The notes beneath the pieces are model-generated. The model worked only from the letters and a program-made list of their open reading frames with translations. It made no database searches and was not told the DNA's origin. The position numbers were made by a program, and so were the translations under genes. Positions 19,310 through 36,305 of a stretch of 36,305 nucleotides of DNA are shown here, piece by piece; within the stretch, counting starts at the first letter, position 1; every line of letters starts with the position of its first letter. The stretch lies in contig CALDSS010000023.1 in the NCBI GenBank assembly GCA_937924495.1, positions 1 through 36,305 of the forward strand, written 5' to 3'. Origin of the DNA: an uncultured Saprospiraceae bacterium. Lineage in GTDB: Bacteria > Bacteroidota > Bacteroidia > Chitinophagales > Saprospiraceae.

Positions 19310-20392
19310 TTAGAACTCTTCTTTCCACCTTGCACCATATTCCTCAACAAGAATATTGTCTAAATCGTCTGCCTGTTGAAAAAGGTTTTTGAAAAGTCTT
19401 AGTCCAGTTTCGCTATTAAAATAGCGGTCATAAATCAGAAGCGATAGAATGATGTCTTGTCCTTTAACGCTAATAGTGAGTCCTTTTAAAGAATAATTGG
19501 TGCGAAGAATATATTCGTAAATAGGCTTAATGTTTTGAGAAGGTAGCAAACATAAAAAGGCATCTCCGATAATCAATCCATTTTTTTCAAAATAAGAAAC
19601 GCGAATTTTTGCACTTCCTTTTTGCATTTCCCAACTATTGGGGCCACGACGGCATAGGCGAATATCATAACCTAATTGTTCGAGCATAGACTCAATCGTT
19701 TTCGGCATACCAGCAGGCTCAAACTCCTCTATCATTGAAGGCAGTTTGAGTTTTGAACCACAATGGATGCAATATTTCCCCTCTCGTTGTTTCTCGAAAA
19801 CGATATTCATACAAGAAGCGCATCTTGCACCATAGTCATTGTTTCCACCTTTAAAAGCTTCTATAGTAGATTGGATATAATGACTAGGTAAGGAAAACCC
19901 TAAATTTTCACCATCCTTGAGAATGAAAGTATTGATACCTACAATCTCCCCTTTTTCATTGATAAGTGGTCCGCCACTATTACCTGGGTTGAGTGCGGCG
20001 TCATGCTGAATAAAAGCAATTTCATCCACCAAGTGATAAGTATTGGATACGATTCCTTGCGTCGCAGTATATTTCAAACCATAAGGGTGGCCAATCGCTA
20101 CCACTTTATCACCTTCCGTAAGTTTATCTTTTTCACCCAATTCAACCTTGAGCGATTGGATGTCTGGCGGCATCTTTAAAAAAGCGAGATCATGTTTTTT
20201 ATCAAGGAAAAAGACATCCGTGAGTTGTTTTTCAAAATGCTTACCATAGACAATGACCGTCTTGTTGTTGCGGACTACATGCTCATTGGTGATAATGATG
20301 TCATATTTTTCTAAAAGAAACCCCGTCCCCGTACTATACGGAGTAGCAATCTGTACAATTATACCTTTATATTTCTCAATGACTTCCTTCAC
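19310..20392 (-). CDS. cytoplasmic trypsin-like serine protease with zinc ribbon and C-terminal YbjN-like domain
   Basis: A 360-aa protein without signal peptide or membrane segment. Residues 1-180 are an HtrA/trypsin-2-like protease with the full triad: H38 (TNEHVV), D68 (KHDLAFL), S139 (NPGNSGGP). No PDZ domain follows. Residues 191-211 form a four-Cys zinc ribbon (C191, C194, C208, C211). The C-terminal ~130 residues (PKTIESMLEQLGYDIRLC ... DRYFNSETGLRLF) look like a YbjN/secretion-chaperone-like alpha-beta domain. The order protease-ribbon-chaperone-like is unusual. An intracellular regulatory protease is inferred from the lack of export signal. It is transcribed towards the convergent lipoprotein gene. 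Confidence 0.88.
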   Translation of the reverse strand: MKEVIEKYKGIIVQIATPYSTGTGFLLEKYDIIITNEHVVRNNKTVIVYGKHFEKQLTDVFFLDKKHDLAFLKMPPDIQSLKVELGEKDKLTEGDKVVAIGHPYGLKYTATQGIVSNTYHLVDEIAFIQHDAALNPGNSGGPLINEKGEIVGINTFILKDGENLGFSLPSHYIQSTIEAFKGGNNDYGARCASCMNIVFEKQREGKYCIHCGSKLKLPSMIEEFEPAGMPKTIESMLEQLGYDIRLCRRGPNSWEMQKGSAKIRVSYFEKNGLIIGDAFLCLLPSQNIKPIYEYILRTNYSLKGLTISVKGQDIILSLLIYDRYFNSETGLRLFKNLFQQADDLDNILVEEYGARWKEEF

Positions 20393-20539
20393 GGAAACGG
20401 GTTTTGAATGGCGAATATATGAGTTAATTATTTAGCCAAAAAGCAATGTTTTTCTTTAGAGGCCTTTTTATGATAAAAATCACGGGTTTTAGGGCGGAAT
20501 AGGCTATTTTATTTCGCTATGATCAATTAGTTTTATTCC

Positions 20540-20547
20540 TATCTTTG
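20540..20547 (+). promoter_or_regulatory. -7 box TATCTTTG upstream of efp
   Basis: Exact TAnnTTTG match, 46 bp before the efp start; no clear -33 element. It probably drives efp and perhaps the acc genes. Confidence 0.55.
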
Positions 20548-20593
20548 CGCCACTTTTTGAATTACCTAAGTTTTTTAATAAAAATATAAAAAC

Positions 20594-21154
20594 ATGGCCT
20601 CAACGGCGGATATTAAAAAAGGACTTTGTATCGAATACAGTAACGATATTTACTCAGTTGTTGATTTTCAGCACGTAAAACCGGGAAAAGGGGCTGCTTT
20701 CGTGAGAACGAAATTAAAAAGTGTGACGAATGGAAAAGTAGTCGATAATACTTTTCCTTCAGGGCATAAAATTACAACGGTAAGAGTCGAGAGAAGGAAG
20801 TTTCAATACTTATACAAAGACGATATGGGTTTTCATTTTATGAATAATGAAACCTATGAGCAGACTTCTATGCAGCCAGAATTGATTGAGAATAGTCAAT
20901 TTTTGAAGGAAGGAATGAATATAGAAATTCTATTTCACTCTGAAAAAGAAATTCCACTCATGGTAGAATTGCCACAAAGTGCCTTTTACGAAGTGAAATA
21001 TACAGAGCCAGGGCTAAAAGGAGATACTGCCACCAATACGCAAAAACCTGCTACTTTGGAAACGGATGCAGAAGTCAGAGTACCTTTGTTTATCAATATT
21101 GGCGATCAAGTGAAAATTGATACACGAACTGGTGATTATTTAGGCCGAACTTAA
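20594..21154 (+). CDS. efp: translation elongation factor P
   Basis: Relieves ribosome stalling at polyproline stretches. 186 aa, normal family length, with the three-barrel layout: KOW-like N-terminal domain (MASTADIKKGLCIEYSNDIY), the tip loop VKPGKGAAF with K32 at the site modified in other bacteria, the central domain and an OB-like C-terminus ending VKIDTRTGDYLGRT. The efp-accB-accC order is common across bacteria. The gap to accB is 164 bp, so accB may have its own promoter as well. Confidence 0.97.
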   Translation: MASTADIKKGLCIEYSNDIYSVVDFQHVKPGKGAAFVRTKLKSVTNGKVVDNTFPSGHKITTVRVERRKFQYLYKDDMGFHFMNNETYEQTSMQPELIENSQFLKEGMNIEILFHSEKEIPLMVELPQSAFYEVKYTEPGLKGDTATNTQKPATLETDAEVRVPLFINIGDQVKIDTRTGDYLGRT

Positions 21155-21318
21155 TTTTTAAGATTTTTAGAATAAACTCAAATAGAAAGGATCGGGTATT
21201 TTTATGGTATCCGAATTCTTTTTGTTATTTTGATAAAGGAGATAAGTATTTGATTTCGCGTTCCTATATTTATCCCACCTTTACCAGCTATTAAATAAAT
21301 ACTACACAACGAAACCAT

Positions 21319-21825
21319 ATGACTTTTAAAGAAATCCAAGAGTTAATCAAATTGGTAAGTAAATCCAAACTGAACGAATTCAAAGTGAAAAAAGGGGATT
21401 TTGAAATGACCATTCGTTCTGAAAATTATACCAAAGGTTCTAATGCCGCTCCGATTATACATTCGGCTCCATCAATCATGCCTGTAAGTGCTCCTGCTCC
21501 AGTACCAGCTGCTGCACCTGCGGCCGCTGCAACACCTGCGGCCGCTGCGCCAGAAGCTGCTGCACCAAAGGAAGATACCAGTAAATATATTGAGATAAAA
21601 TCTCCAATGATTGGTACTTTTTATCGCTCTGCATCACCAGAAAAACCAGTTTTTGTTTCTGTTGGTGATAAAGTTGATAAAGGCTCAGTTGTTTGTATCA
21701 TTGAAGCGATGAAGCTTTTCAATGAAATTGAAGCAGAGGTTACTGGTACAATTGTGAAAGTCTTAGTTGAAGATTCGCAGCCAGTAGAGTATGATCAACC
21801 ACTTTTCTTGGTTGATCCGAGCTAA
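21319..21825 (+). CDS. accB: acetyl-CoA carboxylase biotin carboxyl carrier protein
   Basis: Carries carboxybiotin between the biotin carboxylase and carboxyltransferase in the first step of fatty-acid synthesis. 168 aa: a helical N-terminus ([21 protein letters not shown]), an Ala/Pro-rich flexible linker (about 55-83), and the biotinyl domain [20 protein letters not shown] ... [14 protein letters not shown], with biotinylated K132. Ends with [13 protein letters not shown] as in typical AccB. accC follows 60 bp downstream on the same strand, and the two products form one complex. Confidence 0.97.
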
Positions 21826-21885
21826 TCCATCTTTTCCAATTTTTTTTGACTTGCGTCAAAAGCTGAACAAACACAAAGGAACCTT

Positions 21886-23235
21886 ATGTTCAAGAAAATA
21901 CTTATAGCCAATCGTGGAGAAATTGCGCTTAGAATAATTAGAACCTGCAAGGAAATGGGCATTAAAACAGTGGCCATTTACTCCACAGCTGATAGAGATA
22001 GCCTTCATGTTCGATTTGCAGATGAAGCGGTTTGTATTGGCCCCCCTTCATCCGCAGAGTCTTATCTTAATATTCCTAAAATTATGGCGGCGGTAGAAAT
22101 TACCAATGCTGATGCGGTTCATCCGGGTTATGGTTTCTTGTCAGAGAACCCTGATTTTGCGGAGGTTTGTACTCAATATGGTATCAAATTTATTGGCCCT
22201 ACGCCCGATCAGATGAAGAAAATGGGGGATAAGGTCACTGCAAAAGAAACAATGATTAAGGCAGGTGTTCCAGTAGTACCTGGTTCTGACGGACTTTTGA
22301 AAGACCTGAAAGACGGTAAAAAAGTAGCAAAAGAAATCGGTTATCCTGTTATCATCAAAGCAACAGCCGGTGGTGGTGGAAAAGGAATGCGAATCATTTG
22401 GAAAGAGGAGGAATTTGAGGCAGCTTGGGATAGCGCACGAAAAGAAGCAAAAGTATCCTTCGGTAATGATGGGATGTATTGCGAAAAATTTGTGGAAGAA
22501 CCTCATCATATCGAATTCCAAATCGCAGGTGACCAATTTGGGAATGTTTGCCACCTTTCAGAAAGGGATTGTTCTATTCAGCGAAGACACCAGAAATTAG
22601 TGGAAGAAAGTCCTTCCCCTTATTTAGATGATGACTTGCGTGAAAGAATGGGCGAAGCAGCCATCCGAGCAGGGGAGTGCATCAATTATGAAGGAGTAGG
22701 AACGGTTGAGTTTTTGGTAGATAAATACAAGAAATTCTATTTCATGGAAATGAATACTCGTATTCAGGTAGAACATCCTGTTACGGAGGAGGTCATTGAT
22801 CATGATTTAATAAAAGAGCAAATCAAATTGGCTGCCGGTGAAAAAATTTCCGGTAAAAACTACTACCCAACGATGTGGGCGATGGAATGCCGTATCAATG
22901 CCGAAGATCCATATTATGATTTTCGCCCTGCTCCAGGAAAAATTGGTTCATTTCATAGCCCGAAAGGGCATGGTGTACGCGTAGATACGCACGTTTATGC
23001 AGGGTACACAGTTCCTCCTCATTATGATTCAATGATTGCCAAGCTCATTTGTCGTGCTCAGACTCGTGAAGAATGTATCCGAAAAATGGAGCGAGCGCTA
23101 GATGAATTTATTGTAGAAGGAATAAAAACCACTATTCCTTTTCATAAAAAATTGATGAAGGATCCTGATTTTAGAGCTGGAAAATTCAATACTGGCTTTA
23201 TCAATACTTTCGATTTAGGTGATCCTGAAGGTTAA
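21886..23235 (+). CDS. accC: acetyl-CoA carboxylase biotin carboxylase subunit
   Basis: ATP-dependent carboxylation of the biotin on AccB using bicarbonate. 449 aa, full length. Motifs: N-terminal [29 protein letters not shown]-grasp K116 and K158, the glycine loop [10 protein letters not shown] (162-167), and the catalytic stretch [16 protein letters not shown] with E288, N290, R292 and E296. The biotin carboxylase C-terminal domain runs from ~330 ([11 protein letters not shown]) to the end (FNTGFINTF). It forms an operon with accB. Confidence 0.98.
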
Positions 23236-23242
23236 GAGATTA

Positions 23243-23293
23243 AGTTGATTGGTTGATTTATAAATTTACCTAAACTAAATTAACCAATCAACT
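23243..23293. terminator. inverted repeat between convergent genes (possible terminator)
   Basis: AGTTGATTGGTT (23243-23254) pairs with AACCAATCAACT (23282-23293) across 27 bases. There is no T-run directly after, so termination is uncertain. The arm also overlaps a local direct repeat (AATCAAC). Confidence 0.4.
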
Positions 23294-23305
23294 CAATCAA
23301 CCAAT

Positions 23306-23575
23306 TCATATCCTTTCCAACTCGGCAATACGAGCGTTCAATTGCTCAATCTGCGATTTGTACTTAATGGTAATTTGACCATTTCGAAGCCTCACATTTT
23401 TAAATTCTTCTGAGCTCACATCCAAGTCGTGGCTCATTTTATCAATGTTATTGCTCAAATCTTCTACTTTTCCGTTCAGCGCTTTGATGATAGATTGACG
23501 CTTGGTACTTGTTATCAATGCCCAAACGAAGCCAATGGCTAAAATGCCGAGAAGTGCGAATAGTAAATTTTGCAT
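23306..23575 (-). CDS. small membrane-anchored coiled-coil protein
   Basis: 89 aa: one N-terminal transmembrane helix (LLFALLGILAIGFVWALI), a short basic stretch (TSTKRQ), then heptad-like helix to the C-terminus (KVEDLSNNIDKMSHDLDV ... QIEQLNARIAELERI). The pattern suggests an inner-membrane anchored dimerising helix. No family recognised. It is a single gene, convergent with accC and divergent from the CotH gene. Confidence 0.65.
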   Translation of the reverse strand: MQNLLFALLGILAIGFVWALITSTKRQSIIKALNGKVEDLSNNIDKMSHDLDVSSEEFKNVRLRNGQITIKYKSQIEQLNARIAELERI

Positions 23576-23710
23576 AATTTAATATTTTTCGTTTTGAAAT
23601 ATTGGTTATTTGAAATAATTAAATTTGTGTATTTAATTTATTGCAAAACTTTGTTTGGCTAATTTAGTAATTTTCATAGAATTGTAAAAATTGAATGACT
23701 TGAAGTTGAA

Positions 23711-23744
23711 TTGCATTTCTTGACTGCGGAAGAATTTATCTTTG
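23711..23744 (+). promoter_or_regulatory. Bacteroidota-type promoter (TTG-N23-TATCTTTG)
   Basis: TTG at 23711-23713 and TATCTTTG at 23737-23744, 34 bp before the ATG of the CotH-family gene. The surrounding 23576-23777 gap shows nothing else. Confidence 0.55.
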
Positions 23745-23777
23745 AATTCGTTTAAAATCTATTCTTAAAAAGCGATT

Positions 23778-26117
23778 ATGAAAATTTTACCCTCCAGCTT
23801 TCTTGTCTTTTTTTGTTTTCTGAAATTAAGTAGTCAGGAGGTGGTCATCAATGAAATTTGTTCCAGTAATAGCACCGTCATTGAAGATGGATATGGAGAA
23901 TTTAGCGATTGGGTAGAGTTGTACAACAATAGCTCCCAAACTATCAACCTCGAAAACTATGGATTATCCGATGATAGCGACGAACCTCGAAAATGGCTTT
24001 TCCCAGAAACAGAAATAACTCCAAATGGTTTTTTATTGGTTTTCGCTTCTGGCCAAGATTCGATGATTGACAATGAGCTGCACACCAATTTTAAAATAAA
24101 ACAAACTGGCGAATCTTTAATTTTAACCAATGGACAAGGGCAAATTATTGATGAAGTAGTGCCCCTTGAAATTGCAACAGATCAATCTTTTTCACGAACT
24201 CCTGATGGAGCCAGCAATTGGGAAATCACTACCTCTCCAACTCCCAATATTTCTAATCTAATCACAAAAGAAATTTCCATTTCGCACACCTCTGGTTTTT
24301 ATAAAGAACCTTTTTCTTTTGAAATTAGAAACCCCAATCCCAATCAAAAAATCTACTATACACTGAATGGTAATACACCAACTGAGAATGATTTTCTGTA
24401 CACGCAGCCTATTCAAATTAATTCAAATCCAGCAGATTTTTATCCATATAGTAATATCCCAACTACTCCGACAGAAGGCCCTGATCGACTTCAAGAATAT
24501 ATTTGGAAAGCTCCAGAAAGTGTTTTCACGGGCACGGTGATTCGTTTCGCTGCTTTTGAAAATGGGGAACGAAAAAGTGAAGTCTTTTCAAAAACATATT
24601 TTATTGGTGAAGAAAATAAATATGATTTTCCAGTAGTAAGTGTAGTCACGGATAGTCTCAATTTGTTTGGTTTTAGTGAGGGCATTTACATTCCGGGTGA
24701 GCGATTTGATACAATGGGTTTTGATTGGTTTCCTTTCGGAAATTTTCTGAATGAAGGAAGAGAATGGGAGCGAGATATACATTTGACGTGGTTTGAAAAT
24801 GGGCAAGTTGGATTCGAGACAGATGCTGGTTTTCGAATGCATGGAAATGGAAGTACAGCTTTTTCCCAAAAGTCGTTTAAGGTCTATTTTCGAAATGAGT
24901 ATGGTTTAAACGAATTAGAATACCCCGTTTTTCAAGATGCTGATAATGAACAGTTTAAACGATTATTATTTCGATCAGGAGGCAACGATTTTTTGCGGTC
25001 AAGATTCAAAGATCCCATGTTGCAAACACTGATAAGCGACCTTGATGTTTATTTACAAAACTTTCGACCTGTTGTCGTTTTTATTAATGGGGAATATTGG
25101 GGGTTGCATCATCTGAGAGATAAATATGACCGCTATCATTTAAAATATAATTTTGGGTTTGACGAGGAGGAGGTCAATATTTTAAAGCATTGTGGACAAG
25201 TAGAAGAAGGTAGCAATCGAGAATACAATGAATTAATCAACTTTGTTGAGAGCAACGATTTGTCCATTCAAAGCAATTTTGAATATGTAGAACAACGAGT
25301 TGATATTTCTAATTTCATAGACTTTCAAATTGCGGAAATTTACTTTGCCAACTATGACTGGCCTTGCAATAATTTTAAAATTTGGAAGAGCAATGAACCC
25401 GAAGATAAATGGCGTTTTTTGATTTTTGACCTCGATTTTACTTTCGGCGAAAGCCAAAATACAAGATCAGATTATCTTTCATTAGAACATGCTAGTTCTA
25501 CTTCAGAAGATTGGCCTTATTGTCAGTGTTCGAATGTGCTTTTTAGAAAATTATTAGATAATAAAGATTTTCAAAAACGATTCATAGAACGATTCACCTT
25601 TTGTCTCAATAACACTTTTAGTCGAAACAGGGTAGTGGCTCTGATTGACGAGTTTGAAACTCTTTTCGAAAATGCAATGCCCGAACATATTGCCAGATGG
25701 CAATATCCTGAAGACATGAATGCGTGGCGAAAAGAAATAGAAAAACTACGTGTTTTTGCCAACGAACGTCCTTGTCATGTACAATCTCAACTCCTCTCAT
25801 TTTTTGATTTGGATACAATTGACTTTGATTGCAGCAAAGATTTTATTGCGAATGTAGATGGTAGGTTGAAAATTTTTCCCAATCCAAATAATGGAAATTT
25901 CTCAATCGCCAATGCAACGGAAATCGATATTGAAGATGCGGAATTGACTATTTTCAATGCAGTCGGTCAAATTGTTTTTAATAAATATAACTACACACTT
26001 ACAAGTAAAGAAAAACGATTGGTGAGTAGATTGAAATTGCCGATGGGTTTGTACACTGTTGTTTTAGAAAATGAAACCACTCGCCTTTTGGAAAAGTTAG
26101 TGATTTGGAGTGATTGA
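23778..26117 (+). CDS. secreted CotH-kinase family protein with LTD and T9SS sorting domains
   Basis: A 779-aa exported protein. Signal peptide 1-20; lamin-tail domain 21-~155 (EVVINEICSSNSTVIEDGYG, then WVELYN); a chitobiase-C-like Ig domain ~175-265 (KIYYTLNGNTPT); the CotH domain ~275-640 with FRMHGNGSTAFSQKSFKVYF, FINGEYWGLHHLRDKYDRYH and WRFLIFDLDFTFG; and a T9SS C-terminal sorting domain from IFPNPNNGNFSI (~697) to LLEKLVIW. CotH of Bacillus is an atypical protein kinase; the DLDF motif could supply the metal-binding Asp here. Substrates are unknown. The domain set LTD-CotH-T9SS recurs in Bacteroidota. Its stop lies one base from that of the next, convergent gene. Confidence 0.9.
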   Translation: MKILPSSFLVFFCFLKLSSQEVVINEICSSNSTVIEDGYGEFSDWVELYNNSSQTINLENYGLSDDSDEPRKWLFPETEITPNGFLLVFASGQDSMIDNELHTNFKIKQTGESLILTNGQGQIIDEVVPLEIATDQSFSRTPDGASNWEITTSPTPNISNLITKEISISHTSGFYKEPFSFEIRNPNPNQKIYYTLNGNTPTENDFLYTQPIQINSNPADFYPYSNIPTTPTEGPDRLQEYIWKAPESVFTGTVIRFAAFENGERKSEVFSKTYFIGEENKYDFPVVSVVTDSLNLFGFSEGIYIPGERFDTMGFDWFPFGNFLNEGREWERDIHLTWFENGQVGFETDAGFRMHGNGSTAFSQKSFKVYFRNEYGLNELEYPVFQDADNEQFKRLLFRSGGNDFLRSRFKDPMLQTLISDLDVYLQNFRPVVVFINGEYWGLHHLRDKYDRYHLKYNFGFDEEEVNILKHCGQVEEGSNREYNELINFVESNDLSIQSNFEYVEQRVDISNFIDFQIAEIYFANYDWPCNNFKIWKSNEPEDKWRFLIFDLDFTFGESQNTRSDYLSLEHASSTSEDWPYCQCSNVLFRKLLDNKDFQKRFIERFTFCLNNTFSRNRVVALIDEFETLFENAMPEHIARWQYPEDMNAWRKEIEKLRVFANERPCHVQSQLLSFFDLDTIDFDCSKDFIANVDGRLKIFPNPNNGNFSIANATEIDIEDAELTIFNAVGQIVFNKYNYTLTSKEKRLVSRLKLPMGLYTVVLENETTRLLEKLVIWSD

Positions 26118-26118
26118 A

Positions 26119-26775
26119 TTAAGAGCCTTTTATGATTTCGTAAATTTTTCCTTTTGGTCCGATTCTTACTTTTTTTTGATACAAATCTATTTGAATTTTG
26201 TTCTCATTTTCATCCTTCAGATAAACCGACCATTCATCTCGTTTCGTTTCTTCAAGTTGCTTGGGTTTTCCTTTCTTTTGGGTGTCAGGATTATCTTCCA
26301 GCCAAACAGTTGTTCCAGGTACATTAGCAAAACTTCCAGATGCTTTTTCATTATATGCGTAAACAACTTTTTTTACTTGTTGGCCTTTAGGAGTGATCAA
26401 CGCCTCTTCAATTTTATATAATACTCGTTCAGGTTCATTGCCTTTTTGTTGCATGATCTTTTTACCACTCACATCAATTCGCAAACGAATATTTAGAGAT
26501 TTATTGAAAAGATAAATGGAGGATTTATCACGTTTTTCCTCTTTAAACATAAACCGCATTTTTAGGTCTTTGCCCTCTTCCACCCATTCTTTTCTACCCT
26601 TGTTTCGGAGATAACCATTTTTAAATGAAATGAAGTTTGCGGTTTGGCCATTCACTTCTAATGTGGTAGGTTTGTCAACATTGGCAGCTGTGCTTTCGTG
26701 TACTTCTTCACCATTTATGAAAAAGGCAATGATTGCAACTAAAGCTAAAACAAGGAGAAAAATAATTTTTTTCAT
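26119..26775 (-). CDS. exported protein with two copies of a KRDEWSVYL-type repeat
   Basis: About 218 aa from MKKIIFLLVLALVAIIAFF (start at 26775; an ATG at 26790 adds five residues). A signal peptide or anchor leads into two related units: ~50-110 (RNKGRKEWVEEGKDLKMRF, EEKRDKSSIYLF, IRLRIDVSGKKIM) and ~165-218 (VWLEDNPDTQ, LEETKRDEWSVYLKD, IQIDLYQKKVRIGPKG). The shared pattern is a charged loop, RDxxSxYL, then IxIDxxxKKV, a beta-hairpin-like module I have seen repeated in Bacteroidota proteins. Function unknown. The stop codon is one base from the CotH gene stop, leaving no room for a terminator between them. Confidence 0.72.
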   Translation of the reverse strand: MKKIIFLLVLALVAIIAFFINGEEVHESTAANVDKPTTLEVNGQTANFISFKNGYLRNKGRKEWVEEGKDLKMRFMFKEEKRDKSSIYLFNKSLNIRLRIDVSGKKIMQQKGNEPERVLYKIEEALITPKGQQVKKVVYAYNEKASGSFANVPGTTVWLEDNPDTQKKGKPKQLEETKRDEWSVYLKDENENKIQIDLYQKKVRIGPKGKIYEIIKGS

Positions 26776-26841
26776 AATTAAAATTAGCAAAGATTCAGGA
26801 CTAATTCTTGTTTTCTACGTCTTACTATCACAATTTTAAAT

Positions 26842-27498
26842 ATGGATAATTTATCGCCAACATATTATTACGATTACGAATCAGGTGCTATTCAAAGTTT
26901 AGTAGCTGAATTTCGCTCAGAAGAACTTTCTGATAAAGACAAAGCAGTTCGATTGTATTTGAAAGTGCGAGATGGTTGGTGGTACAATCCTTACACAATT
27001 AGTCTGAAAAAAAAGGACTATCGGGCAAGTTGGCTCGTAGCGCGAAAAGAAGGACACTGCATTGATAAAGCAATTATTTTGATAGCTGGTTTGCGGGCAT
27101 TGGGCATCCCTGCTCGTATCAATTTGGCAAAAGTCAAAAACCATATTGCAGTTGATTTGCTCACCGAACTTTTAGGTACCAATGAATTAACGCCGCATGG
27201 CAATGTGAGTATTTACTTGGATGGAAAATGGGTGAAAGCCACCCCTGCTTTTAATAAAGACTTATGCCGAGTTATCAATGTAGAACCCCTTGAATTTGAT
27301 GGGGAAAGCGATTCTGTTTTTCAAACTTTTAATGCAGCGGGGACTCAGTTCATGGAATACCTTGAAAACTACGGCGACTTCGAAGACTTCCCTTTTGATT
27401 TCGTAGTGGATAATATGAAAACTAATTACCCAAAAATAAAAGAACTATTTGGAGAAGATGTAGAAGTATTTGATTTTAGGAAGGTATCTAAACCTTAG
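26842..27498 (+). CDS. transglutaminase-like cysteine protease superfamily protein
   Basis: A 218-aa protein with no signal peptide. The core shows the family order: KEGHCIDKAIILIAGLRALG (nucleophile C73, helix), GIPARINLAKVKN, then HGNVSIYLDGKWVKATPAFN (H119). In classical members an Asp follows in the D-P motif after the Trp; here the position reads ATPAFN, so the third catalytic residue is missing or supplied by another side chain. It may be a peptidase, amidase or a non-catalytic binding form. It is divergent from the repeat protein gene and convergent with the peroxidase gene (19 bp apart). Confidence 0.82.
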   Translation: MDNLSPTYYYDYESGAIQSLVAEFRSEELSDKDKAVRLYLKVRDGWWYNPYTISLKKKDYRASWLVARKEGHCIDKAIILIAGLRALGIPARINLAKVKNHIAVDLLTELLGTNELTPHGNVSIYLDGKWVKATPAFNKDLCRVINVEPLEFDGESDSVFQTFNAAGTQFMEYLENYGDFEDFPFDFVVDNMKTNYPKIKELFGEDVEVFDFRKVSKP

Positions 27499-27517
27499 CT
27501 TGTTTTTAAATACGAAT

Positions 27518-28681
27518 TTACCTAACAAAAGGATTACTCCACTTTGCTTCTGTTGTCATTTTCTCATCGGTAAGTGATTTTAGAAAATCGACCAAAGCAG
27601 TTTTCTCTTCCTCGTTCATATTCATTCGTTTTGCCTCGTTTCCGTCTCTCAAAGAAGGATGAAGGTTTTCGTGAAATTCGATTCCAGAATTATAAAAATC
27701 TACTACTTCTTCCAAGGTTGCAAAACGGCCGTCGTGCATATAAGGAGCAGTCAATTCAATATTACGCAAACCTGGAATTTTGAATTTTCCAATATCTTCC
27801 AATTTGCCAGTATGCTGATAAACACCCAAATCATTTGCTGTATGTTTCAGTCCATTATTAGTAACAGAAAGATTTTCAGGGTTGGCAAATTCACTAATCG
27901 CTTCCATCCCTTTTCCATGACAAGCAGTACAATGTTTTGCAAATAATTGAAGCCCTCTTTCAAATTTGGTTTCACCAACTACAGAGTCGCCAGAGATGTA
28001 ATTTAAACTAGCGATAACTTCTCCTTCAAATTCAGAATTGGTAGAACTAATCGAATTGATAAAAGTCTCCAATGCTTCTAAAATATTGTCCTCACTAACC
28101 GTTGTTGTACCAAATGCTTTTTCATGCAAAACTTGATAATGATCCGTGTTTTCTATCAGATTAGAAATTTGATGCAACTCCATGCCCATTTCATTGGGGT
28201 TGTTGATAGTCTGTTTGAGTTGCTCTTTGATCGAGGACGCTCGCTCATCCCAAAATAGACCCGGCGTTTCTTTACCGTCAATTGTTTTATCATAATGCAC
28301 GCCGAAATTTCGCAAAGAAGCCAAGGCAATAGAATTTCTATCTGTTACATTGCCATTTGGTCCTTCACTAAATGCTTGGTCGTCTGCAAAGCCAAGGGCT
28401 TGTTGGTGACAACTTGCGCAGGATACTTTTCCATCAGACGACAGTTTTGTATCATAGAAAAGAACGCGTCCGAGTGTTGCCTTATGATTTACTGCTGACT
28501 TGGAGGAAGAATTACCAAATCCATAATCGTATGGAAAATCAGGTAGATCTAAATTGGATGAAAGTACCCTTAATTCGTCAGGAGTATAAGTGCTGTTGAT
28601 GAGTTGTTGATTATTGGGTCGGCAGCCAAAAAGTAGGGCAAAAGCCCCTAATAAAAGTGTAAATATCCTTAACTGGTTCAT
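27518..28681 (-). CDS. di-haem cytochrome c peroxidase (MauG/CcpA family) lipoprotein
   Basis: A 387-aa protein with a lipoprotein signal (FALLFGC, C20). Two c-type haem sites: CASCH at 88-92 and CTACH at 251-255. Other family signatures: KATLGRVLFYDTKLSSDGKVS, FWDERASS, NPNEMGM, KIPGLRNIELTAPYMHDGRF and LHPSL. It would reduce hydrogen peroxide in the periplasm using electrons from a small cytochrome or copper protein, or oxidise a protein substrate as MauG does. The distal Met/Tyr that separates these classes cannot be assigned safely by eye. The neighbouring minus-strand genes include another c-type haem protein. Confidence 0.93.
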   Translation of the reverse strand: MNQLRIFTLLLGAFALLFGCRPNNQQLINSTYTPDELRVLSSNLDLPDFPYDYGFGNSSSKSAVNHKATLGRVLFYDTKLSSDGKVSCASCHQQALGFADDQAFSEGPNGNVTDRNSIALASLRNFGVHYDKTIDGKETPGLFWDERASSIKEQLKQTINNPNEMGMELHQISNLIENTDHYQVLHEKAFGTTTVSEDNILEALETFINSISSTNSEFEGEVIASLNYISGDSVVGETKFERGLQLFAKHCTACHGKGMEAISEFANPENLSVTNNGLKHTANDLGVYQHTGKLEDIGKFKIPGLRNIELTAPYMHDGRFATLEEVVDFYNSGIEFHENLHPSLRDGNEAKRMNMNEEEKTALVDFLKSLTDEKMTTEAKWSNPFVR

Positions 28682-28799
28682 AATTCGAAATTTTCATTGG
28701 GAAATTCGATTTTCAAGTTATGAATAATTTTTTTTGGATGAAATAGAAGGATGAAAATTTGATTGAAATGACTTAATTCGGACTAGAGGAATAGGTTTT

Positions 28800-30338
28800 T
28801 TAGATTTTCACCTTCCATATTTGATTGAAAAACTTTGAGTTCTTCTTTTTAAGAAAGTAAAGTTCATCTTTTGAAATGGTAGTTATCAAATTAATATTAT
28901 CTGCAATCAGCTCAAAGTAGTCTGAATTTTTAAGTCTGTATAGAGCGTACTTTTTCCCATACAGATCACTAGTGATTTTAAAAACATTCGATTCAATTTT
29001 TTTGAGGCCAAATCTATAATGCTGTTTAGTTGGACAATAAGCTGATAGCCCTTCGATTTTTTCAGCACTATTATCTGATTGGTTTAATTTATAAACATTT
29101 CGAGTGGAGTCGTTTTCAGTAGCTGTGAAAATTAAAATACTATCTACAACCGATAAGTTTTGAGCTAATAAGTAGTCACCTTTTATTCTTTCGATTTTTA
29201 AACTTGAATCAATTTTAATTAGAAATCCGAATTTATCAATAAAATACAAAGCCTCTCGAAAAGGAACTAATCGAGTTCCTTGTTCTACTTTTATATATTC
29301 ATTCAAAAGACCATAATCTGCTTTATTCTTATAATACCAAAGGTCATAATCTTTAAGTCCTGCTACACATAAAAAAGTATTGCTGAAAATAATTGGCGAA
29401 TTAACAAGAGCATACCTTCCAAAGTCAATAATTCTTTCTGAAGTGTTATTTTCTAAATCATATTCCCATAGTTCTGTGGCTTCAAAGTCTTTATTATTGT
29501 AACTACCTTTTTTGCCTCGGTGTGTTACTTCAACCAAAAGTTTATTGTTCATAATCTCCATTAATTCAACGAAGACCATTCCTTTTGGGAAGTGTGTTAT
29601 TTTTTTAATATTTCCATTGCAGTCACTAATGAAAAGTGCCTTTTCTTTTGATGCTATTGAACGACCATTAAATATGATTTTATCTTTGTATGAATCATAA
29701 TAATAGGTTTCAAATTCAAAACTATCAGGCAAGAAAGAATTCAATTTTAAACTATCTCTTGTTATGTAAGCGAGTCTGGATTTGGTAAAAACAGTATTAT
29801 CAATCGTTTGGCTACCGCCTAACTCAACCAAAAATTTATTTGCGAAATCATATTCGCCCCTGACTATAGATAGTCTTTTCCACTTTCCAGGTAGTTTTAG
29901 TTTTTCATATAACTCACCTTTTTTAGTCCAAATAAAATGATTTTGCTTGTTGGGAAGATATATTCCTGTTGAGTCGGAGAGTGGATAAAAAGAGGAACGA
30001 AAAATTACTGAGGTATCGGGAATCTTCTGATTTTCATCATAAATGAATTGGTTTTTGAGATTATGATGAAAAATTTTCTCAGTAGTACCTGTTTGAGTCT
30101 CTAATTCAAAAATATGTTTTTCGATAAAAATTCTCGGGCCACCGTTGCCACAAAATGCAATTCCCTTTGGAATGTTTTCGGTATCACCTCCGGTGAACTG
30201 AATTTTTCCATTGACTAATTTTAAATCGGAAATTTGATAAGTAGAATCTTCCGATTTATCATAAACTAAGGATGGTATTTGAGCGAAACCAGCACTTAAC
30301 CAAAGAGATAGGAGAAATGTATTTTTTAGTTTCTTCAT
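28800..30338 (-). CDS. exported protein of unknown function (possible beta-propeller)
   Basis: A 512-aa protein with a signal peptide (MKKLKNTFLLSLWLSAGFAQ). The mature part is a series of short beta-rich units (LYFIDKFGFLIKID, LIFTATENDSTRNVYKLN, YALYRLKNSDYFELIAD, ELYFLKKKNSKFFNQIWKV) suggestive of a propeller that reads like ELK/BNR-type repeats. No T9SS tail or catalytic motif is visible. I do not recognise the family. It is a stand-alone gene; 169 bp separates it from the BNR-propeller gene upstream, with an inverted repeat in between. Confidence 0.72.
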   Translation of the reverse strand: MKKLKNTFLLSLWLSAGFAQIPSLVYDKSEDSTYQISDLKLVNGKIQFTGGDTENIPKGIAFCGNGGPRIFIEKHIFELETQTGTTEKIFHHNLKNQFIYDENQKIPDTSVIFRSSFYPLSDSTGIYLPNKQNHFIWTKKGELYEKLKLPGKWKRLSIVRGEYDFANKFLVELGGSQTIDNTVFTKSRLAYITRDSLKLNSFLPDSFEFETYYYDSYKDKIIFNGRSIASKEKALFISDCNGNIKKITHFPKGMVFVELMEIMNNKLLVEVTHRGKKGSYNNKDFEATELWEYDLENNTSERIIDFGRYALVNSPIIFSNTFLCVAGLKDYDLWYYKNKADYGLLNEYIKVEQGTRLVPFREALYFIDKFGFLIKIDSSLKIERIKGDYLLAQNLSVVDSILIFTATENDSTRNVYKLNQSDNSAEKIEGLSAYCPTKQHYRFGLKKIESNVFKITSDLYGKKYALYRLKNSDYFELIADNINLITTISKDELYFLKKKNSKFFNQIWKVKI

Positions 30339-30425
30339 CGTTCATTTTTATATATCTATGACCCGCTTCATCTATATTTCCCCTTTTTCAGATGAAAATA
30401 GTTTTTCATTTTGCCGAAATATATG

Positions 30426-30496
30426 TGCCGGACACTTCTTTTTTGAATTAGGAGGTTTAAGATCTTGACATCATAAATTTTAGTAAGTGTCCGACA
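30426..30496. repeat. 71-bp inverted-repeat element (possible MITE)
   Basis: TGCCGGACACTT (30426-30437) and AAGTGTCCGACA (30485-30496) are inverted repeats with one mismatch in 12 bp. The 47-base centre (AT-rich) has no coding content. Too widely spaced for a terminator and without a T-run. Confidence 0.45.
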
Positions 30497-30507
30497 AGTT
30501 AAATGAA

Positions 30508-33039
30508 CTATGTTTTTTGAAATTTCATAGAAAACTGTCCTTGCTCCGATTTCATTCTAACAAAATAAAATCCACTTGATAGCTCATTTGTGTTGAAGTC
30601 AATTTGATGTTCTCCTTTCGTATGCTGACCTTTAAAAATGGCTTTTAATTCCTTTCCAGATAGGTCAAAAATTCGAATATCCAAATCTGTTTTTTCAGAA
30701 AGGTCAAATTTTAGCGTTCCTGTTTCCCGTAAAGGGTTAGGAAAAATAGATGCATCGGAAAGTGTTTGAATAGACTCATTCACAGAAACTACATCCTCTA
30801 CTAAATTTCGATCAAAAACTCCATTGCCATGAGTAGCAGCTCTAAGTTTTCGATTCATAGGACTGATTTTTAAATCAAAAATCATAACCGCTTCCATCAG
30901 TCCATCTTGCCATGGTTCCCATGAATTACCTCCGTTAGGAGAGAAGAATACCCCCAAATCATTGCCTACATAAACATGATTAGGAATCATTGGATCTACG
31001 ACTATTGCATTAGTTGGTACATCAGGTAAGTCTGCAGAAATATCTGTCCAAGCCGCTCCAGAATTGGTTGTTTTAAATACATGACCTGTTCCAAAACCAG
31101 AAAAAGTGATATAGGCAATTTCGTCATTCGTTGGGTCAACAGTCATGTCCATCGGATATCTGTCTGGTAAGTTTTGAGTAATATCTATTGCGTTTTGTCC
31201 ACGGTCGTTTGAAACGAATACACTTCCTCTGCCTAGTACAGATGGTGCAGTAGCGAAATACACTTTTTCAAATTTTTGAGAAGATACTTCCATACTCAAA
31301 ACTGGGTTGCCTGGCGTTTGAAATCCAGCAATCCAATTACGGCCACCATTTGGACTATAGGCCATATTGGAAGAGCCAGCATACATGGTTTGGCCATCTG
31401 CTGCCATAACGAAGGGCGCAATGAAAGCAGTAGGATCCTCGCTCGGAATTCTCATTCCAAATCTATTATTGGGTGTAAATCGAGATGTGTTCAAAAACTG
31501 AGAAGAGGTGAAAAAGAACTGGTCATCAGTTGGATTGATAGCCGTCCAGCTACCATCGCCTCCCGAGACACGTCGCCAAGTCAAATCGCCATTGTTTACA
31601 ATGGTTCCATTGTCCTGCAAACCGCCAATGCAAAAGGTAGAATCTTGATAGGAGTTAGAAAATCCATTATAAAACTGAACCGTTTGTAATCGAGCATTTC
31701 GGCTGCGCCAATTGGTGCCCCCATCTTCTGAAACGTGCACACCACCGTCACTTGCCACAAAAATAAAATTGGTGCCCGGCTGATAAATCACATCATGCGC
31801 ATCTGAATGAACATAATCAGAATCTCCATCTGGCCCGGCTATAGGTGGATTGTCATCCCCAACGCCACCAACTGTCACCAGTTGTAAATTGTTGCCTCCA
31901 TTCGTTGATTTCCAAACATTGATACCGATGGCCGTAATTTCATCACGACGCTCAGGGTGAACAGCTACGTCATGTGCAAACCATCCCTGCCATTGAGAAT
32001 AATCTTCTGTATTTTGAAGTGACCAAGTTGTTCCAAAATCATCAGACCGACAAAGCCAACTGGCACCGTCCGAAAAACCAAATCCATTTCCAATACTGGC
32101 ATAAACAATATTGGGATGAGAAGGCGAAGCACCCAATTGTATTTTTCCTAAAAAATCATTTGGTAAGTCTGAGTCATTGTTTTTTGTCCAAGTTGCGCCA
32201 GCATCAGTTGAGCGATAAATTCCAAAACCTGGTGAGGCGAAATTTCCACATCCAACTAATAACTCATTGGTGTTTTCTTGGTTGATGACCAAATCAGTTG
32301 CCATGACCACGTCATGTATTTTGTTCCAATTATCACCTGCATCAATCGATTTGTAAACTCCTTCAGTGGTAGCAGCATAAACGATTTCTGAATTATTTGG
32401 GTCAACTTTAATAGCCCAAATTCCGTGTTGCTGGTTGTATGCCCAATCCAAACTGCGCGTCCAAGTAACCCCTCCGTCAGTTGATTTTAAAATTCCCATT
32501 CCATAACTACCTCTTGTATTTCGATAGGCAGCACCAGTGCCTGCTGCGTCATAATTATACACTTCACCTGTTCCGATATAAATGGTCATAGAATCTTTGG
32601 GAGCAAAAGCGATGTTGCTCACACCAAGCACCGGCCATTCTATATTCACTTGATGCCAAGCATCTTCACCCAGACCTGCCGTGTAGCTTCTCCACAATCC
32701 ACCACTTGCCGAACCTGCATAGAGCGTATTGGGATTTTGAGGATTGAATGCCAAGGACAACATTCTTCCTGCAATGTTATGCGGCCCTAATGATTTCCAA
32801 TGGTCAGTGCTTCTTTCAGCAGTGGCTCCGTATTTTGATTTCATTCTCTCCCATGCTGCGAAGTGGGCTTCGGCAGGTAGTTCTTTGTAAGGGTAGGTTC
32901 TGGCTTGCGCCAAAAAGTTGAGGGCGTGGTAGGCGCCCGATGGGCTGCTCTCTGTAGTATTCTCAATCGGTTTATTTTGAAAATAAAAAATGGAAAGAAC
33001 AAGTAAAGATGCGAATAACAGTACGGCAATTTTTTTCAT
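30508..33039 (-). CDS. secreted BNR/VPS10-type beta-propeller protein with T9SS sorting domain
   Basis: An 843-aa protein. Signal peptide ~1-23. Residues ~90-740 contain many Asp-box/BNR motifs: GLWRS, KSTDGGVTWTR, KSIDAGDNWNK, RSTDAGATWTK, RSDDFGTTWSL, VSEDGGTNWRS, KTTNSGAAWTD and SPNGGNSWEP, typical of sortilin/sialidase-like propellers with two blade sets. The C-terminus is a T9SS sorting domain (ASIFPNPLRETGTLKFDLSE ... SSGFYFVRMKSEQ, split as read). No sialidase arginine triad was identified, so this is a binding or structural propeller as far as can be seen. Exported across the outer membrane and probably surface-bound or released. Confidence 0.9.
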   Translation of the reverse strand: MKKIAVLLFASLLVLSIFYFQNKPIENTTESSPSGAYHALNFLAQARTYPYKELPAEAHFAAWERMKSKYGATAERSTDHWKSLGPHNIAGRMLSLAFNPQNPNTLYAGSASGGLWRSYTAGLGEDAWHQVNIEWPVLGVSNIAFAPKDSMTIYIGTGEVYNYDAAGTGAAYRNTRGSYGMGILKSTDGGVTWTRSLDWAYNQQHGIWAIKVDPNNSEIVYAATTEGVYKSIDAGDNWNKIHDVVMATDLVINQENTNELLVGCGNFASPGFGIYRSTDAGATWTKNNDSDLPNDFLGKIQLGASPSHPNIVYASIGNGFGFSDGASWLCRSDDFGTTWSLQNTEDYSQWQGWFAHDVAVHPERRDEITAIGINVWKSTNGGNNLQLVTVGGVGDDNPPIAGPDGDSDYVHSDAHDVIYQPGTNFIFVASDGGVHVSEDGGTNWRSRNARLQTVQFYNGFSNSYQDSTFCIGGLQDNGTIVNNGDLTWRRVSGGDGSWTAINPTDDQFFFTSSQFLNTSRFTPNNRFGMRIPSEDPTAFIAPFVMAADGQTMYAGSSNMAYSPNGGRNWIAGFQTPGNPVLSMEVSSQKFEKVYFATAPSVLGRGSVFVSNDRGQNAIDITQNLPDRYPMDMTVDPTNDEIAYITFSGFGTGHVFKTTNSGAAWTDISADLPDVPTNAIVVDPMIPNHVYVGNDLGVFFSPNGGNSWEPWQDGLMEAVMIFDLKISPMNRKLRAATHGNGVFDRNLVEDVVSVNESIQTLSDASIFPNPLRETGTLKFDLSEKTDLDIRIFDLSGKELKAIFKGQHTKGEHQIDFNTNELSSGFYFVRMKSEQGQFSMKFQKT

Positions 33040-33139
33040 GCTAATTTATTTTTTGCAAAATAGCAGTAATTAAAAACTTCCCGAAAGGGAAAAAGTAAAT
33101 TGTCGGGAGGATGGTTAAATTTGAGGTAGGCAACTGCGA

Positions 33140-33261
33140 AGTTGTTTAAAAACTCATTGATTGGCTACAAGCGGCAAATTTAATCCTGAATTACGTTAAA
33201 AATCCTCGTCGATGCTAAGGCATCGACTGCGGTTTTTGCCTCGTCTAATGAAAAAACAACT
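33140..33261. repeat. possible MITE or IS remnant with inverted ends
   Basis: AGTTGTTT (33140-33147) and AAACAACT (33254-33261) bracket 106 bp. The centre holds a 40-base hairpin, with an outer TTAATCC/AATTACG stretch. The ends are short and the flanks are not clearly duplicated. Confidence 0.35.
33198..33237. terminator. strong bidirectional terminator-like hairpin
   Basis: AAAAATCC, then GTCGATGC-TAAG-GCATCGAC, then GGTTTTT: an 8-bp perfect stem with matching A- and T-runs outside, allowing termination on either strand. It would end the minus-strand transcript from the cytochrome/VCBS gene. Confidence 0.65.
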
Positions 33262-33361
33262 CACTTCAATTTCGAAACTTTATTATTTCAACTTTACTAA
33301 AGGGAAAATCAAAAGTAAATCTATTTTGAAATATACAATATTGTTGTTATTTTTTTTGAAT

Positions 33362-34882
33362 TTATTTCAACTGATTAAGCATAACTGAAATGTCATATTT
33401 CGCTTCATCCCATTGTTTCTTAATGTTATTCGGAACGGGAGGTGGCGTGACACCAAACAGGCCAAGGACTAAATCCAAGTCTCCATCCCCATCAAAATCA
33501 GCTTTTTCTAAACATAAAGATCGAATCGGTTTTTCACTTGGTACAACTTGAGATTCAAACTCGAAGGTTTTGGTATTTTTGTTTTCCAAATAAATAAAAC
33601 TCTCTTTTAGCCCTTTAGTGTATTCAGGAAAGAAGGCAGTACCAGCCAAATCAATATCCCCGTCTTCATCAAAATCAGCAGCTACCACTTTTGTGCTTCC
33701 GTATATTGGATAAAAAAACGATTCTTCATAAATGCCATTTCGATTCAAATGAATTCTGATACCGTGATATAGTTTGGGGATGTAAGAGTAATCGGCATTG
33801 TCGCCATGAGCCGAGATGATATCTTTTCTGCCGTCTTTATCAAAATCAATAAATACAAAATCACTCGAACCATAATGCGGAGGAAATCTCAAAAGTCGTT
33901 TGGGCTCAAAAGTTAGATTTTCTTTTTGGATAAATTGCCAAATGGATTCATCTCCCTGAGCAAACATTGCAATGATGTCCTTCAATCCATCGCCATTGAT
34001 GTCTTCTATGTAAAATTTTATTGCCCCTGGCAGCTCCAATAGAGGTTTGCGCTCGTACTGTCCCTTCTTTTTTACAAATAAAACTAAGCCTCCGATGTCG
34101 TGTCCAAATTCAGCGACGACAATCTCCTTTTTACCGTCAGTATTTAAATCAACATACTCACTATGGACTGGTCTGCGGAGTTTGTCCAAAAGGATTGTTT
34201 TTTGGGTTTGCCCCAAAAGCGAAAGGTTTCCTTTTGGTAAGTTTCCAGGAAAAAGTTTTCCAATATGTGTGAAAACCGTTCCTTCATCCGTAAAATGAAA
34301 ATCAACAACAGGGCTCTCTACTTCAAAACTTCGATTCCCTTTTTTTGTCCAATGGAAAATTTGATTTTTAAAATTGCCCATCCATAGTTCCTTCTTTTGG
34401 TTGTCAAATTCAATGGAAGTCATAGAAGCGCCATAGTCTTGCTCCACGTACAAATCTTGCCGCCGAAATTGTGGAGAGGTTTTGCTTCTCGTGGCACGCG
34501 TACTATCCACAGGGATTTTCTCTGGGGCTCGATTTAAAATATATTCTTTTAATGCCAACCAATCTTTTTCTTCGATGATTGGCTCCGAAGGGTAGATGTT
34601 TAAACGATTAAATATCGCCAATTCATCTGGAGCAAGTTTTTCACGTCGATCTGCTTTTTTATTAGGAATGCCCATTCGTAAACCCATCTCTGGCAAAACT
34701 GAATTTGCCCAAACATCTTTGGTCAAATCCTTGGGGTCGGCAGGCAGATGGCAATTGCCGCAGTAGGTGATGTAATTTTTTTCTTCAGCACTCATCTCCG
34801 TAGGCAAATCAGATTTGCATGAAAATGCAAAAAATAGAAAGCTGATAAAGACAAATGGACTTTTTTTAGAAAAGCTATTCAT
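33362..34882 (-). CDS. lipoprotein fusing a c-type haem motif to VCBS/FG-GAP repeats
   Basis: A 506-aa lipoprotein (FFAFSC, C22). Close to the mature N-terminus is a c-type haem site YCGNCH (C41, C44, H45) within a cytochrome-like helix (EEKNYITYCGNCHLPADP). Residues ~130-490 form a propeller of FG-GAP/VCBS repeats with Ca-binding loops DLNTDGKKEIV, DINGDGLKDII, DFDKDGRKDII, DFDEDGDIDLA and DFDGDGDLDLV. One haem and a seven-blade-like propeller suggest electron transfer tied to binding at the outer membrane, but no partner can be named. The start was chosen because it gives a proper lipoprotein signal. The upstream neighbour is the YwqG-like gene, 42 bp away. Confidence 0.85.
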   Translation of the reverse strand: MNSFSKKSPFVFISFLFFAFSCKSDLPTEMSAEEKNYITYCGNCHLPADPKDLTKDVWANSVLPEMGLRMGIPNKKADRREKLAPDELAIFNRLNIYPSEPIIEEKDWLALKEYILNRAPEKIPVDSTRATRSKTSPQFRRQDLYVEQDYGASMTSIEFDNQKKELWMGNFKNQIFHWTKKGNRSFEVESPVVDFHFTDEGTVFTHIGKLFPGNLPKGNLSLLGQTQKTILLDKLRRPVHSEYVDLNTDGKKEIVVAEFGHDIGGLVLFVKKKGQYERKPLLELPGAIKFYIEDINGDGLKDIIAMFAQGDESIWQFIQKENLTFEPKRLLRFPPHYGSSDFVFIDFDKDGRKDIISAHGDNADYSYIPKLYHGIRIHLNRNGIYEESFFYPIYGSTKVVAADFDEDGDIDLAGTAFFPEYTKGLKESFIYLENKNTKTFEFESQVVPSEKPIRSLCLEKADFDGDGDLDLVLGLFGVTPPPVPNNIKKQWDEAKYDISVMLNQLK

Positions 34883-34924: not shown

Positions 34925-35728
34925 CTACGTATTTTGAATTAAGTAGCAAGCAATCTGTGATTCCGGTTCAAAGAAGATAAATAGATCACCATCTGACCAA
35001 AAATTTAGATGATCAAAAAAGCGCTGATAAAAATCATTACGCCCTTTTACATTGGTGCGAATCACAGGAATGTCATGGTATTCGCTCGTTAACTGACAAA
35101 CAAATTTCATAAGCTTTCCACTCTTAGGACATTTGGGAATGTCGGGGTATTGAATCCAATGAGGTGCTCCAGTGCTTCCCACATTTGCCTCAGCAACATT
35201 GACTTTAGTGGCCCGAATAGGTGTTTTTTCAAAAACAATTTGAGAGTCAAATTTCAACTCTTCTTCGTAAGCATTATCAGTTTTTTCTAAATCATCAATA
35301 TCAAAAACATTGGGCATAATTGGATTTGAATAATCGACGTAAAAGTTTTCAATATTCAGATAAATCGGACAAATTAGGTGCAAGTCATAAGGCAACCAAT
35401 CAAATGCTTTATCATCGGGTGACAGCATGCCCAAATATTGCATTGGTGCCACAAAGTCAAATTTTGGCGTCGTAATACCCATTGGAACTTCACCTCCCAA
35501 ATAACTGTGGCCTCCCTCTCCAATTTCGAGTTGATGAACCTTATTGGGCGTGACTTCAATGTATTTGAATTTCTCTTCTCCTGTCTGGAGTTCGCGTTCG
35601 CCCATTTCTTCTCCTTCTTCATATTCGAGTATTTCGGCGAGTTTTCCTTTACGGAAAATGAGTTCCATCGCGGAGTATTGTGTCATCGCATCTTCTTTAC
35701 TGACGGCTTGTGTTTTGATGAAATTCAT
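34925..35728 (-). CDS. YwqG/DUF1963-like protein; true N-terminus lies upstream without a normal start codon
   Basis: The 267 aa from ATG 35728 include a C-terminal region resembling the DUF1963/YwqG family: APHWIQYPDIPKCPKSGKLMKFVCQLTSE cut in two by function, with CP-SGK and FVCQL blocks, and a final LNFWSDGDLFIFFEPESQ. The same frame stays open upstream to a TAA at 35870-35872, and its last codons read GEEKRLYLAGWEVNFDGSEDC, clearly protein-like and continuous with MNFIKTQ. Yet no ATG, GTG or TTG occurs in those 47 codons. The real start is therefore either a rare codon (ATT or ATA) or was lost by mutation. Function of the family is unknown. Located 42 bp upstream of the cytochrome/VCBS gene on the same strand. 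Confidence 0.65.
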   Translation of the reverse strand: MNFIKTQAVSKEDAMTQYSAMELIFRKGKLAEILEYEEGEEMGERELQTGEEKFKYIEVTPNKVHQLEIGEGGHSYLGGEVPMGITTPKFDFVAPMQYLGMLSPDDKAFDWLPYDLHLICPIYLNIENFYVDYSNPIMPNVFDIDDLEKTDNAYEEELKFDSQIVFEKTPIRATKVNVAEANVGSTGAPHWIQYPDIPKCPKSGKLMKFVCQLTSEYHDIPVIRTNVKGRNDFYQRFFDHLNFWSDGDLFIFFEPESQIACYLIQNT

Positions 35729-35871
35729 ACAATCCTCCGAGCCGTCAAAGTTGACTTCCCAACCTGCGAGATAGAGGCGTTTTTCTTCTCCATTTTGAGA
35801 ATTGGATTTGAGTTGGATAAGGATAATTATTATTTTTGGATGAATGCCTAGTGGTATGTGATTCCTATTTT

Positions 35872-36044
35872 ATGGGACACGGATTAAACTGATTTAAAGG
35901 ATTAGAACGGATTGAATGTTTTTTAAATATCTTTTTTCAATGAATTTACGCTGTAAAATTTTTGGATAAATAGGGAGTGTATTTAGAATTAGACAAATTA
36001 AATCCGTTTTAATCCTTTTTATATCCGTTCAATCAGTGTCCTAT
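35872..36044. repeat. 173-bp element with ~42-bp imperfect inverted repeats
   Basis: The left arm (35872-35914) begins ATGGGACACGGATTAAACTG; the right arm (36001-36044) read on the minus strand begins ATAGGACACTGATTGAACGG. Both arms share GGACAC, GATT, AAGGATTA and AACGGATT blocks in the same order. The 86-base centre is AT-rich and non-coding. Both arms together can form a long cruciform. Confidence 0.7.
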
Positions 36045-36064
36045 CACGTTGTTAAGGCAGCTTT

Positions 36065-36305
36065 TCAACAACACCCCGACCCCGGCGTACAAGACCCACC
36101 ACCAGAGGCAATCAAATCTGAAAGATTCACTTTTGGCTTCACTTCCTCTGCTACGACCACAGGAGCACAGCAGGCAGCCGCTTTTTCCTCAGGCGTTTCG
36201 GCGCGGTCTTTCGCTTTGCAGCAAGTTTGCTCAGTACCGAGTTTTACGATGACTTTGTCGGTATGAATTTGGACTTGGTTGATGTTCAAAACAGCTTTAT
36301 GAAAA
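36065..36305 (-). CDS. Cys-rich C-terminal part of a protein running off the window
   Basis: The minus-strand frame is open from the window edge to a stop at 36065. A TTG at 36289 could start a 74-aa protein, but codons beyond it continue without a stop to the edge (FHKAVLNINQVQIH), so a longer gene truncated by the window is likely. Cysteines fall in pairs: QTCCK, AACCAP and the terminal SCTPGSGCC, eight residues of a metal- or cluster-binding type layout separated by Ala/Glu/Lys-rich linker. I do not recognise the family; metal binding is inferred from the Cys pattern only. Confidence 0.55.
   Translation of the reverse strand, partial: FHKAVLNINQVQIHTDKVIVKLGTEQTCCKAKDRAETPEEKAAACCAPVVVAEEVKPKVNLSDLIASGGGSCTPGSGCC

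Follow-up and report, generated by a model that had tools for sequence, protein, structure and literature searches.

Bacterial pseudogenes truncated at the 5' end by deletion are a known class, as are microhomology-associated deletions, and initiation at codons other than AUG is known from cases such as the AUU of infC. Gene X, on the minus strand of the window (the whole stretch of 36,305 nucleotides analysed here), can be set beside all three. As in 5'-truncated pseudogenes, its body is open and conserved, its start and the adjoining intergenic region are gone, and a neighbour is cut at the same breakpoint; X does not differ in kind from that class, its fused antisense frame being open for about 22 codons and mimicking an N-terminal extension. 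As in microhomology-associated deletions, a sequence of about 5 nt is common to both breakpoints in the arrangement of a related genome, G004, in what is one example only. Like genes with infC-type initiation, X has an upstream frame devoid of ATG, GTG and TTG but, unlike them, it has relatives with an ATG, and the corresponding region here derives from another gene. X is most likely an ordinary damaged gene, produced by an ordinary kind of event, with no new kind of start codon. One puzzling gene start is thereby explained, and rare start codons in this lineage gain no support. In a literature search judged by titles and the openings of abstracts, none of the titles listed dealt with the X locus or with a fused divergent gene pair.

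Counted from ATG 35728, its first standard start, X occupies positions 34925-35728. Upstream of that codon the frame runs on for another 47 codons, as far as 35869, and is bounded by a TAA at 35870-35872. Both the frame itself and the list of open reading frames confirm what the initial annotation had noticed, that this stretch contains no stop and, between the TAA and ATG 35728, no ATG, GTG or TTG; the list takes the first of these three codons after a stop and so gives X from 35728 only. X matched nothing in Pfam or NCBIfam, its profile matched no PDB sequence, and its predicted structure, built from four sequences, was too poor for use (mean pLDDT 34.5).

The window genome (G000) comprises 3.26 Mb in 211 contigs and is 85.9% complete, and the comparison with relatives covered the window beyond its first 16,305 bases. 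X was matched in 5 of 60 genomes, its own included; the others are G004, a sister species (86% identity), G002 (73%) and G003 (89% over 195 residues, in a copy cut by a contig end), all of the same genus, and G059, of another family. The same search gave no match to X in G001 and G005, also of this genus. The X loci of G002, G003 and G004 come from metagenome-assembled genomes named 'uncultured Saprospiraceae bacterium', and G003 holds a second, distant copy (43% identity), a paralogue that begins MSFWKKLSG.... In G004, X starts MKKIIDKITSMFDSNDSDNGEE, with its ATG at C190:21326 and the N-terminus MKKIIDKITSMFDSNDSDNGEEKHLYL...; the G002 protein begins MKDLFKKITSAFTSDDATNSGEQRLYL... at an ATG picked by alignment, its frame being open further to a TTG. 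The start is thus present in relatives and lost here: an ATG lies well upstream of MNF in both orthologues (G004 and G002) and in the G003 paralogue, and MNFIKTQ is internal. ATG 35728 also aligns with an ATG in G004 and G002 and encodes an internal methionine, M48 of the window's open frame and M41 in G004. The initial annotation, in holding that a start at 35728 comes too late, was right for the ancestral gene, and the comparison of N-termini that it proposed as a check found that none of these three homologues begins at MNF. Nor is a non-standard start conserved among the relatives, which have ATG at the aligned N-terminus.

The fate of the start emerges from the intact arrangement in G004. 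When the 901-bp X-GNAT stretch of that genome (the end of a GNAT gene, the beginning of X and the 70-bp intergenic region that separates the two genes) was searched against the window's own genome, query positions 674-899 matched window 35577-35802 (86%, E = 3e-72) and query positions 120-163 matched window 35802-35845 (80%, E = 0.0025). The two pieces lie on the same strand and in the same order and meet at 35802, the collinear pattern of a deletion-truncated gene, with 510 query bases missing between them. Of the missing G004 sequence, 394 bases belong to GNAT and 46 to the beginning of X, and the remainder is the complete intergenic region. Read in the X sense, both G004 breakpoints carry CCAAC and the window junction carries CCAAT, a microhomology of about 5 nt. 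Elsewhere in G000 the missing 510 bp gave just chance-like matches of 17-27 nt (E of at least 0.056, among 40 of 87 candidates, in an 85.9% complete genome).

We consider it very likely that a deletion of about 510 bp fused X to the antisense of the last codons of the neighbouring GNAT gene. In the ancestor, X (minus strand) and GNAT (plus strand) would have been divergent genes with about 70 bp between their start codons, the head-to-head arrangement of G004, the one relative in which this order is seen; G002 has both genes on separate contigs. A single deletion of about 510 bp, with its ends inside both genes and at the microhomology, would have removed the first 15 or so codons of X together with their ATG, the intergenic region and all of GNAT except its last 16 or so codons. 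The X frame would then run 'upstream' into the antisense of the GNAT tail, where it is presumably by chance that it stays open to the TAA at 35870-35872. The deleted intergenic region in G004 carries, upstream of X, TTG-N19-TAATTTTG, a motif of the Bacteroidota type and a putative promoter; PMC6847099 gives the Bacteroidetes promoter consensus as TTTG/TANNTTTG. No TAnnTTTG was found in the X sense between window positions 36060 and 35728.

The neighbour's remains are recognizable in their own right. When window 35795-35875 was searched against the genus, the segment 35802-35846 matched G002:C47 (84%, E = 1.2e-7) and G004:C190:20818-20861 (80%, E = 2.5e-4), and other hits outside the window had E values of at least 0.037. 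The G004 match shares a contig with X and is found some 465 bp upstream of the X ATG, within the 3' end of a gene that encodes a 147-residue protein and stands head to head with X. The intact genes match Pfam GNAT (PF00583) at 5.6e-15 in G004 and 1.7e-14 in G002. The remnant's frame ends ...GFELDKDNYYFWMNA before its stop, compared with ...GFELEGNNFYFWANL in G004 and ...GFELEENNFYFWRNG in G002. Aligned with the G004 and G002 genes, the 49-nt remnant scored 50 and 60, respectively, against maxima of 33 and 40 in single-base shuffles (0 of 5,000 reached the observed score in each case), and the match on the GNAT side runs ungapped through the CCAA of the junction. A search of G000 (85.9% complete) with the G004 GNAT protein yielded only two weak matches, of 23 and 27% identity, and listed no GNAT orthologue; with the genome incomplete, the absence is provisional, and intact copies of GNAT or X may lie elsewhere. 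About half of the apparent upstream coding sequence is therefore the antisense of the GNAT C-terminus plus its flank: of the 47 codons, the first 22 or so are this remnant and flank read backwards and form no part of the X coding sequence. The antisense frame over tail and flank is open for 23 codons (NRNHIPLGIHPKIIIILIQLKSN), a length so short that we think chance is explanation enough. The locus illustrates a trap: what looks like a seamless upstream extension of a conserved gene may be an open antisense frame of a truncated neighbour, as comparison with the intact arrangement reveals.

Table 1. Features at the start of gene X and toward the end of the window.
Feature	Position	Strand	Remarks
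Gene X remainder	34925..35803	-	Codons ~23 to 314 of the open frame, homologous in the intact G004 orthologue to codons ~16 to 307
X codons 27-47 (GEEKRLYLAGWEVNFDGSEDC, GEEKRLYL...EDC)	35729..35791	-	True coding sequence upstream of the only usable ATG, under purifying selection
Deletion junction	35801..35806		510 bp of G004 (C190:20862-21371) missing here
GNAT tail remnant (IGFELDKDNYYFWMNA, then stop)	35801..35851	+	Last ~16 codons and TAG 35849-35851; matches GNAT genes of G002 and G004
Inverted-repeat element	35872..36046		Arms of about 45 nt; matched at no fewer than 15 other places in the genome
DUF6428 gene, 3' part, cut by contig end	36054..36305	-	251/252 bases identical to the end of a G002-binned contig

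The part of the upstream frame nearest to ATG 35728 is of a different nature. Codons 27-47 align gap-free with G004 and G002. Against G004 they show 3.0 nonsynonymous changes over 50.8 sites and 10 synonymous changes over 12.2 sites, a dN of 0.061 with synonymous sites saturated, compared with a dN of 0.054 and a dS of 1.33 for codons 48-314; the 267 codons from ATG 35728 on thus have the same substitution pattern. Codons 11-26 show no such constraint (dN 0.83). Codons 27-47 are real coding sequence that has been under purifying selection like the rest of X, so that the earlier description of the entire upstream stretch as coding stands for these codons and fails for codons 1 to about 22. On the window branch (sites at which the window departs from a state common to G004 and G002), codons 27-47 have acquired three synonymous and no nonsynonymous changes; about 12 nonsynonymous changes would be expected had they been untranslated throughout, a rough figure scaled from only 3 changes. 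Polarised changes across codons 27-314 number 34 synonymous and 8 nonsynonymous on the window branch and 32 and 7 on the G004 branch, corresponding to dN/dS values of 0.058 and 0.054, which are rough estimates because synonymous sites are near saturation and only codons at which two genomes agree were counted. The unconstrained share f of the window branch has a one-sided 95% upper limit of 0.05 to 0.10, depending on the earlier dN/dS that is assumed. No stop, frameshift or rise in dN/dS was seen in X on the window branch, which is consistent with a young deletion and also with continued use of a shortened X.

The most likely status of X is that of a 5'-truncated gene silenced not long ago, and we favour a young loss with X now mostly silent. 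With its start and promoter-like motif gone, X could at best yield a shortened protein from M48. That such a protein, beginning MNFIKTQ... at ATG 35728, is still expressed and functional after the same deletion is the main rival; it would account for the absence of nonsense and frameshift changes in codons 48-314 and for their low dN/dS (0.058) on the window branch, and it would use the first standard start. However, the shortened product would lack the original N-terminus and 21 further codons conserved to the same degree as the body, the window has lost the promoter-like motif present in G004, and long use of ATG 35728 should have let codons 27-47 decay. We regard continued use of a shortened X as unlikely, though as the most serious competitor of recent silencing. 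Translation from a non-standard codon recruited after the deletion is more doubtful still. An ATA ATA ATT ATC run at 35822-35833, within the GNAT-derived stretch, is in frame and lies behind AAAA, and codons 27-47 are intact. In PMC6847099, Bacteroidetes are described as being without Shine-Dalgarno sequences, and adenines at -3 and -6 as favouring initiation in F. johnsoniae, a preference that counts in favour of this run. The run nevertheless mirrors the aligned GNAT codons of G002 and G004 and so does not owe its position to selection for a start, which leaves the possible start at this run without positive support; the intact state of codons 27-47 is accounted for by the recency of the loss. 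Rescue of X by a de novo AUA or AUU start within the antisense of the old neighbour's tail would make it a living gene whose newly born N-terminus is read from the opposite strand of another gene, a prospect to which we give very little credence.

The remaining explanations dispute the event itself. The join could be an error of metagenome assembly or a minority strain variant, with both genes intact in the species; the named relatives are metagenome-assembled genomes, the window genome is fragmented and 85.9% complete, and the contig ends about 500 bp past the junction, in sequence shared with another contig. Against this, the sequence shared at the junction is only about 5 nt, much shorter than the words with which an assembler works. 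Within 35780-36100 the junction is not covered by any repeat of 12 nt or more, own-genome matches of window 35600-36000 at E values up to 0.001 all fall in the element part (among 40 of 72 candidates), and the missing 510 bp is represented in G000 only by the chance-like 17-27 nt matches (among 40 of 87 candidates). An artefact or minority variant accordingly seems improbable to us. It is less credible still, to the point of near exclusion, that insertion of the inverted-repeat element at 35872 brought new DNA to the start of X. The element is close to X and has at least 15 other matching places in the genome; however, it starts about 35872, 20 bp past the GNAT stop and 3' of GNAT, so that the GNAT tail, its stop and the 20-bp flank separate it from X, and the collinearity of that tail with G004 contradicts an insertion. 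The element, which lies between the converging GNAT remnant and DUF6428 gene, is a bystander to the start loss. The initial annotation had offered three origins for the startless frame. Damage at the start is borne out by the removal of the ancestral ATG and the two-piece collinear match to G004; DNA joined by the element is contradicted by a breakpoint near 35801-35806, roughly 65 bp away from the element, and by the origin of the joined DNA, which is the 3' end of the former neighbour; and a rare ATT or ATA start, though conceivable, is needed to explain nothing.

Two local origins were tried and rejected. For loss of the start by point change with the original 5' region kept, TAGGCATT and AAAAATAAT were seemingly shared with the G004 start region, but shuffles reached the score in 129 of 1,000 cases, and still in 91 of 1,000 when the homologous edge was left out. 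For a small inversion of the start region, shuffles reached the scores in 511 and 453 of 1,000 cases, and the plus-strand reading behind this idea is the GNAT tail. The same two comparisons against G002 found nothing.

Window 35600-36000 as query hit at least 16 places in the genome, the window included, of which the other 15 match only the left arm region of the element (among 40 of 72 candidates). The unit of about 45 nt, GGACACGGATTAAAC...GGATT, forms the inverted pair in 35872-36046 and also a cluster of at least six copies, in both orientations, on the 3450-bp contig G000:C102. The G002-binned contig that shares the end of the window is 3046 bp long; the two sequences differ only at 36164, agree throughout their last 141 bases and terminate at the same base. 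Such a shared contig end is what an assembler working with an overlap of 141 would be expected to leave. It suggests either two contexts for the DUF6428 gene in the sequenced community or the misbinning of one contig. A chimeric contig joined at the element was considered for this 251/252 identity, but the other part of the contig already accounts for the start loss. The PALP protein of the G002 contig, which we take to be TrpB-like, had no match in a search of G000, an empty result that shows little.

A second, intergenic repeat lies at window 33138-33301, is dispersed in high copy and contains the short palindrome TCGATGC TAAG GCATCGA. Its matches number at least 46 in this genome (window included), at least 47 in G004, at least 23 in G002 and at least 12 in G003, with none in G001 or G005 among the matches listed. 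In G002 and G004, many copies share 90-97% identity with that of the window, where gene matches are mostly 65-83%, and several copies start at the first bases of contigs. The window, this repeat included, gave no Rfam match at gathering thresholds. About 2.6 kb upstream of X in G004 is an open reading frame (L015 3-416) that, by resemblance, we take to be a candidate REP-associated (Y1/RAYT) transposase and that could be linked to the dispersed repeats of the genus.

As a control on start codons, 13 other window genes (15580-34882, genes before 15580 lying outside the control) were compared with the loci of relatives. A relative aligned from near the N-terminus for 9 of the 13, and in 7 of these 9 (15580, 19310, 20594, 21319, 21886, 26842 and 30508) at least one relative had a permitted start at the aligned first residue. 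The starts of genes 18266 and 27518 were not cleanly aligned, and four genes (23778, 26119, 28800 and 33362) were without a usable relative. This control alone would not flag X, because ATG 35728 has its aligned ATG in G004 and G002. One control gene, at 19310-20392 on the minus strand and presumably encoding a trypsin-like protease (we recognize a GNSGG motif), begins with GTG; the aligned codon in its relatives is TTG or GTG, and the 15 codons displayed around that position include no ATG, so that a start other than ATG may be conserved here.
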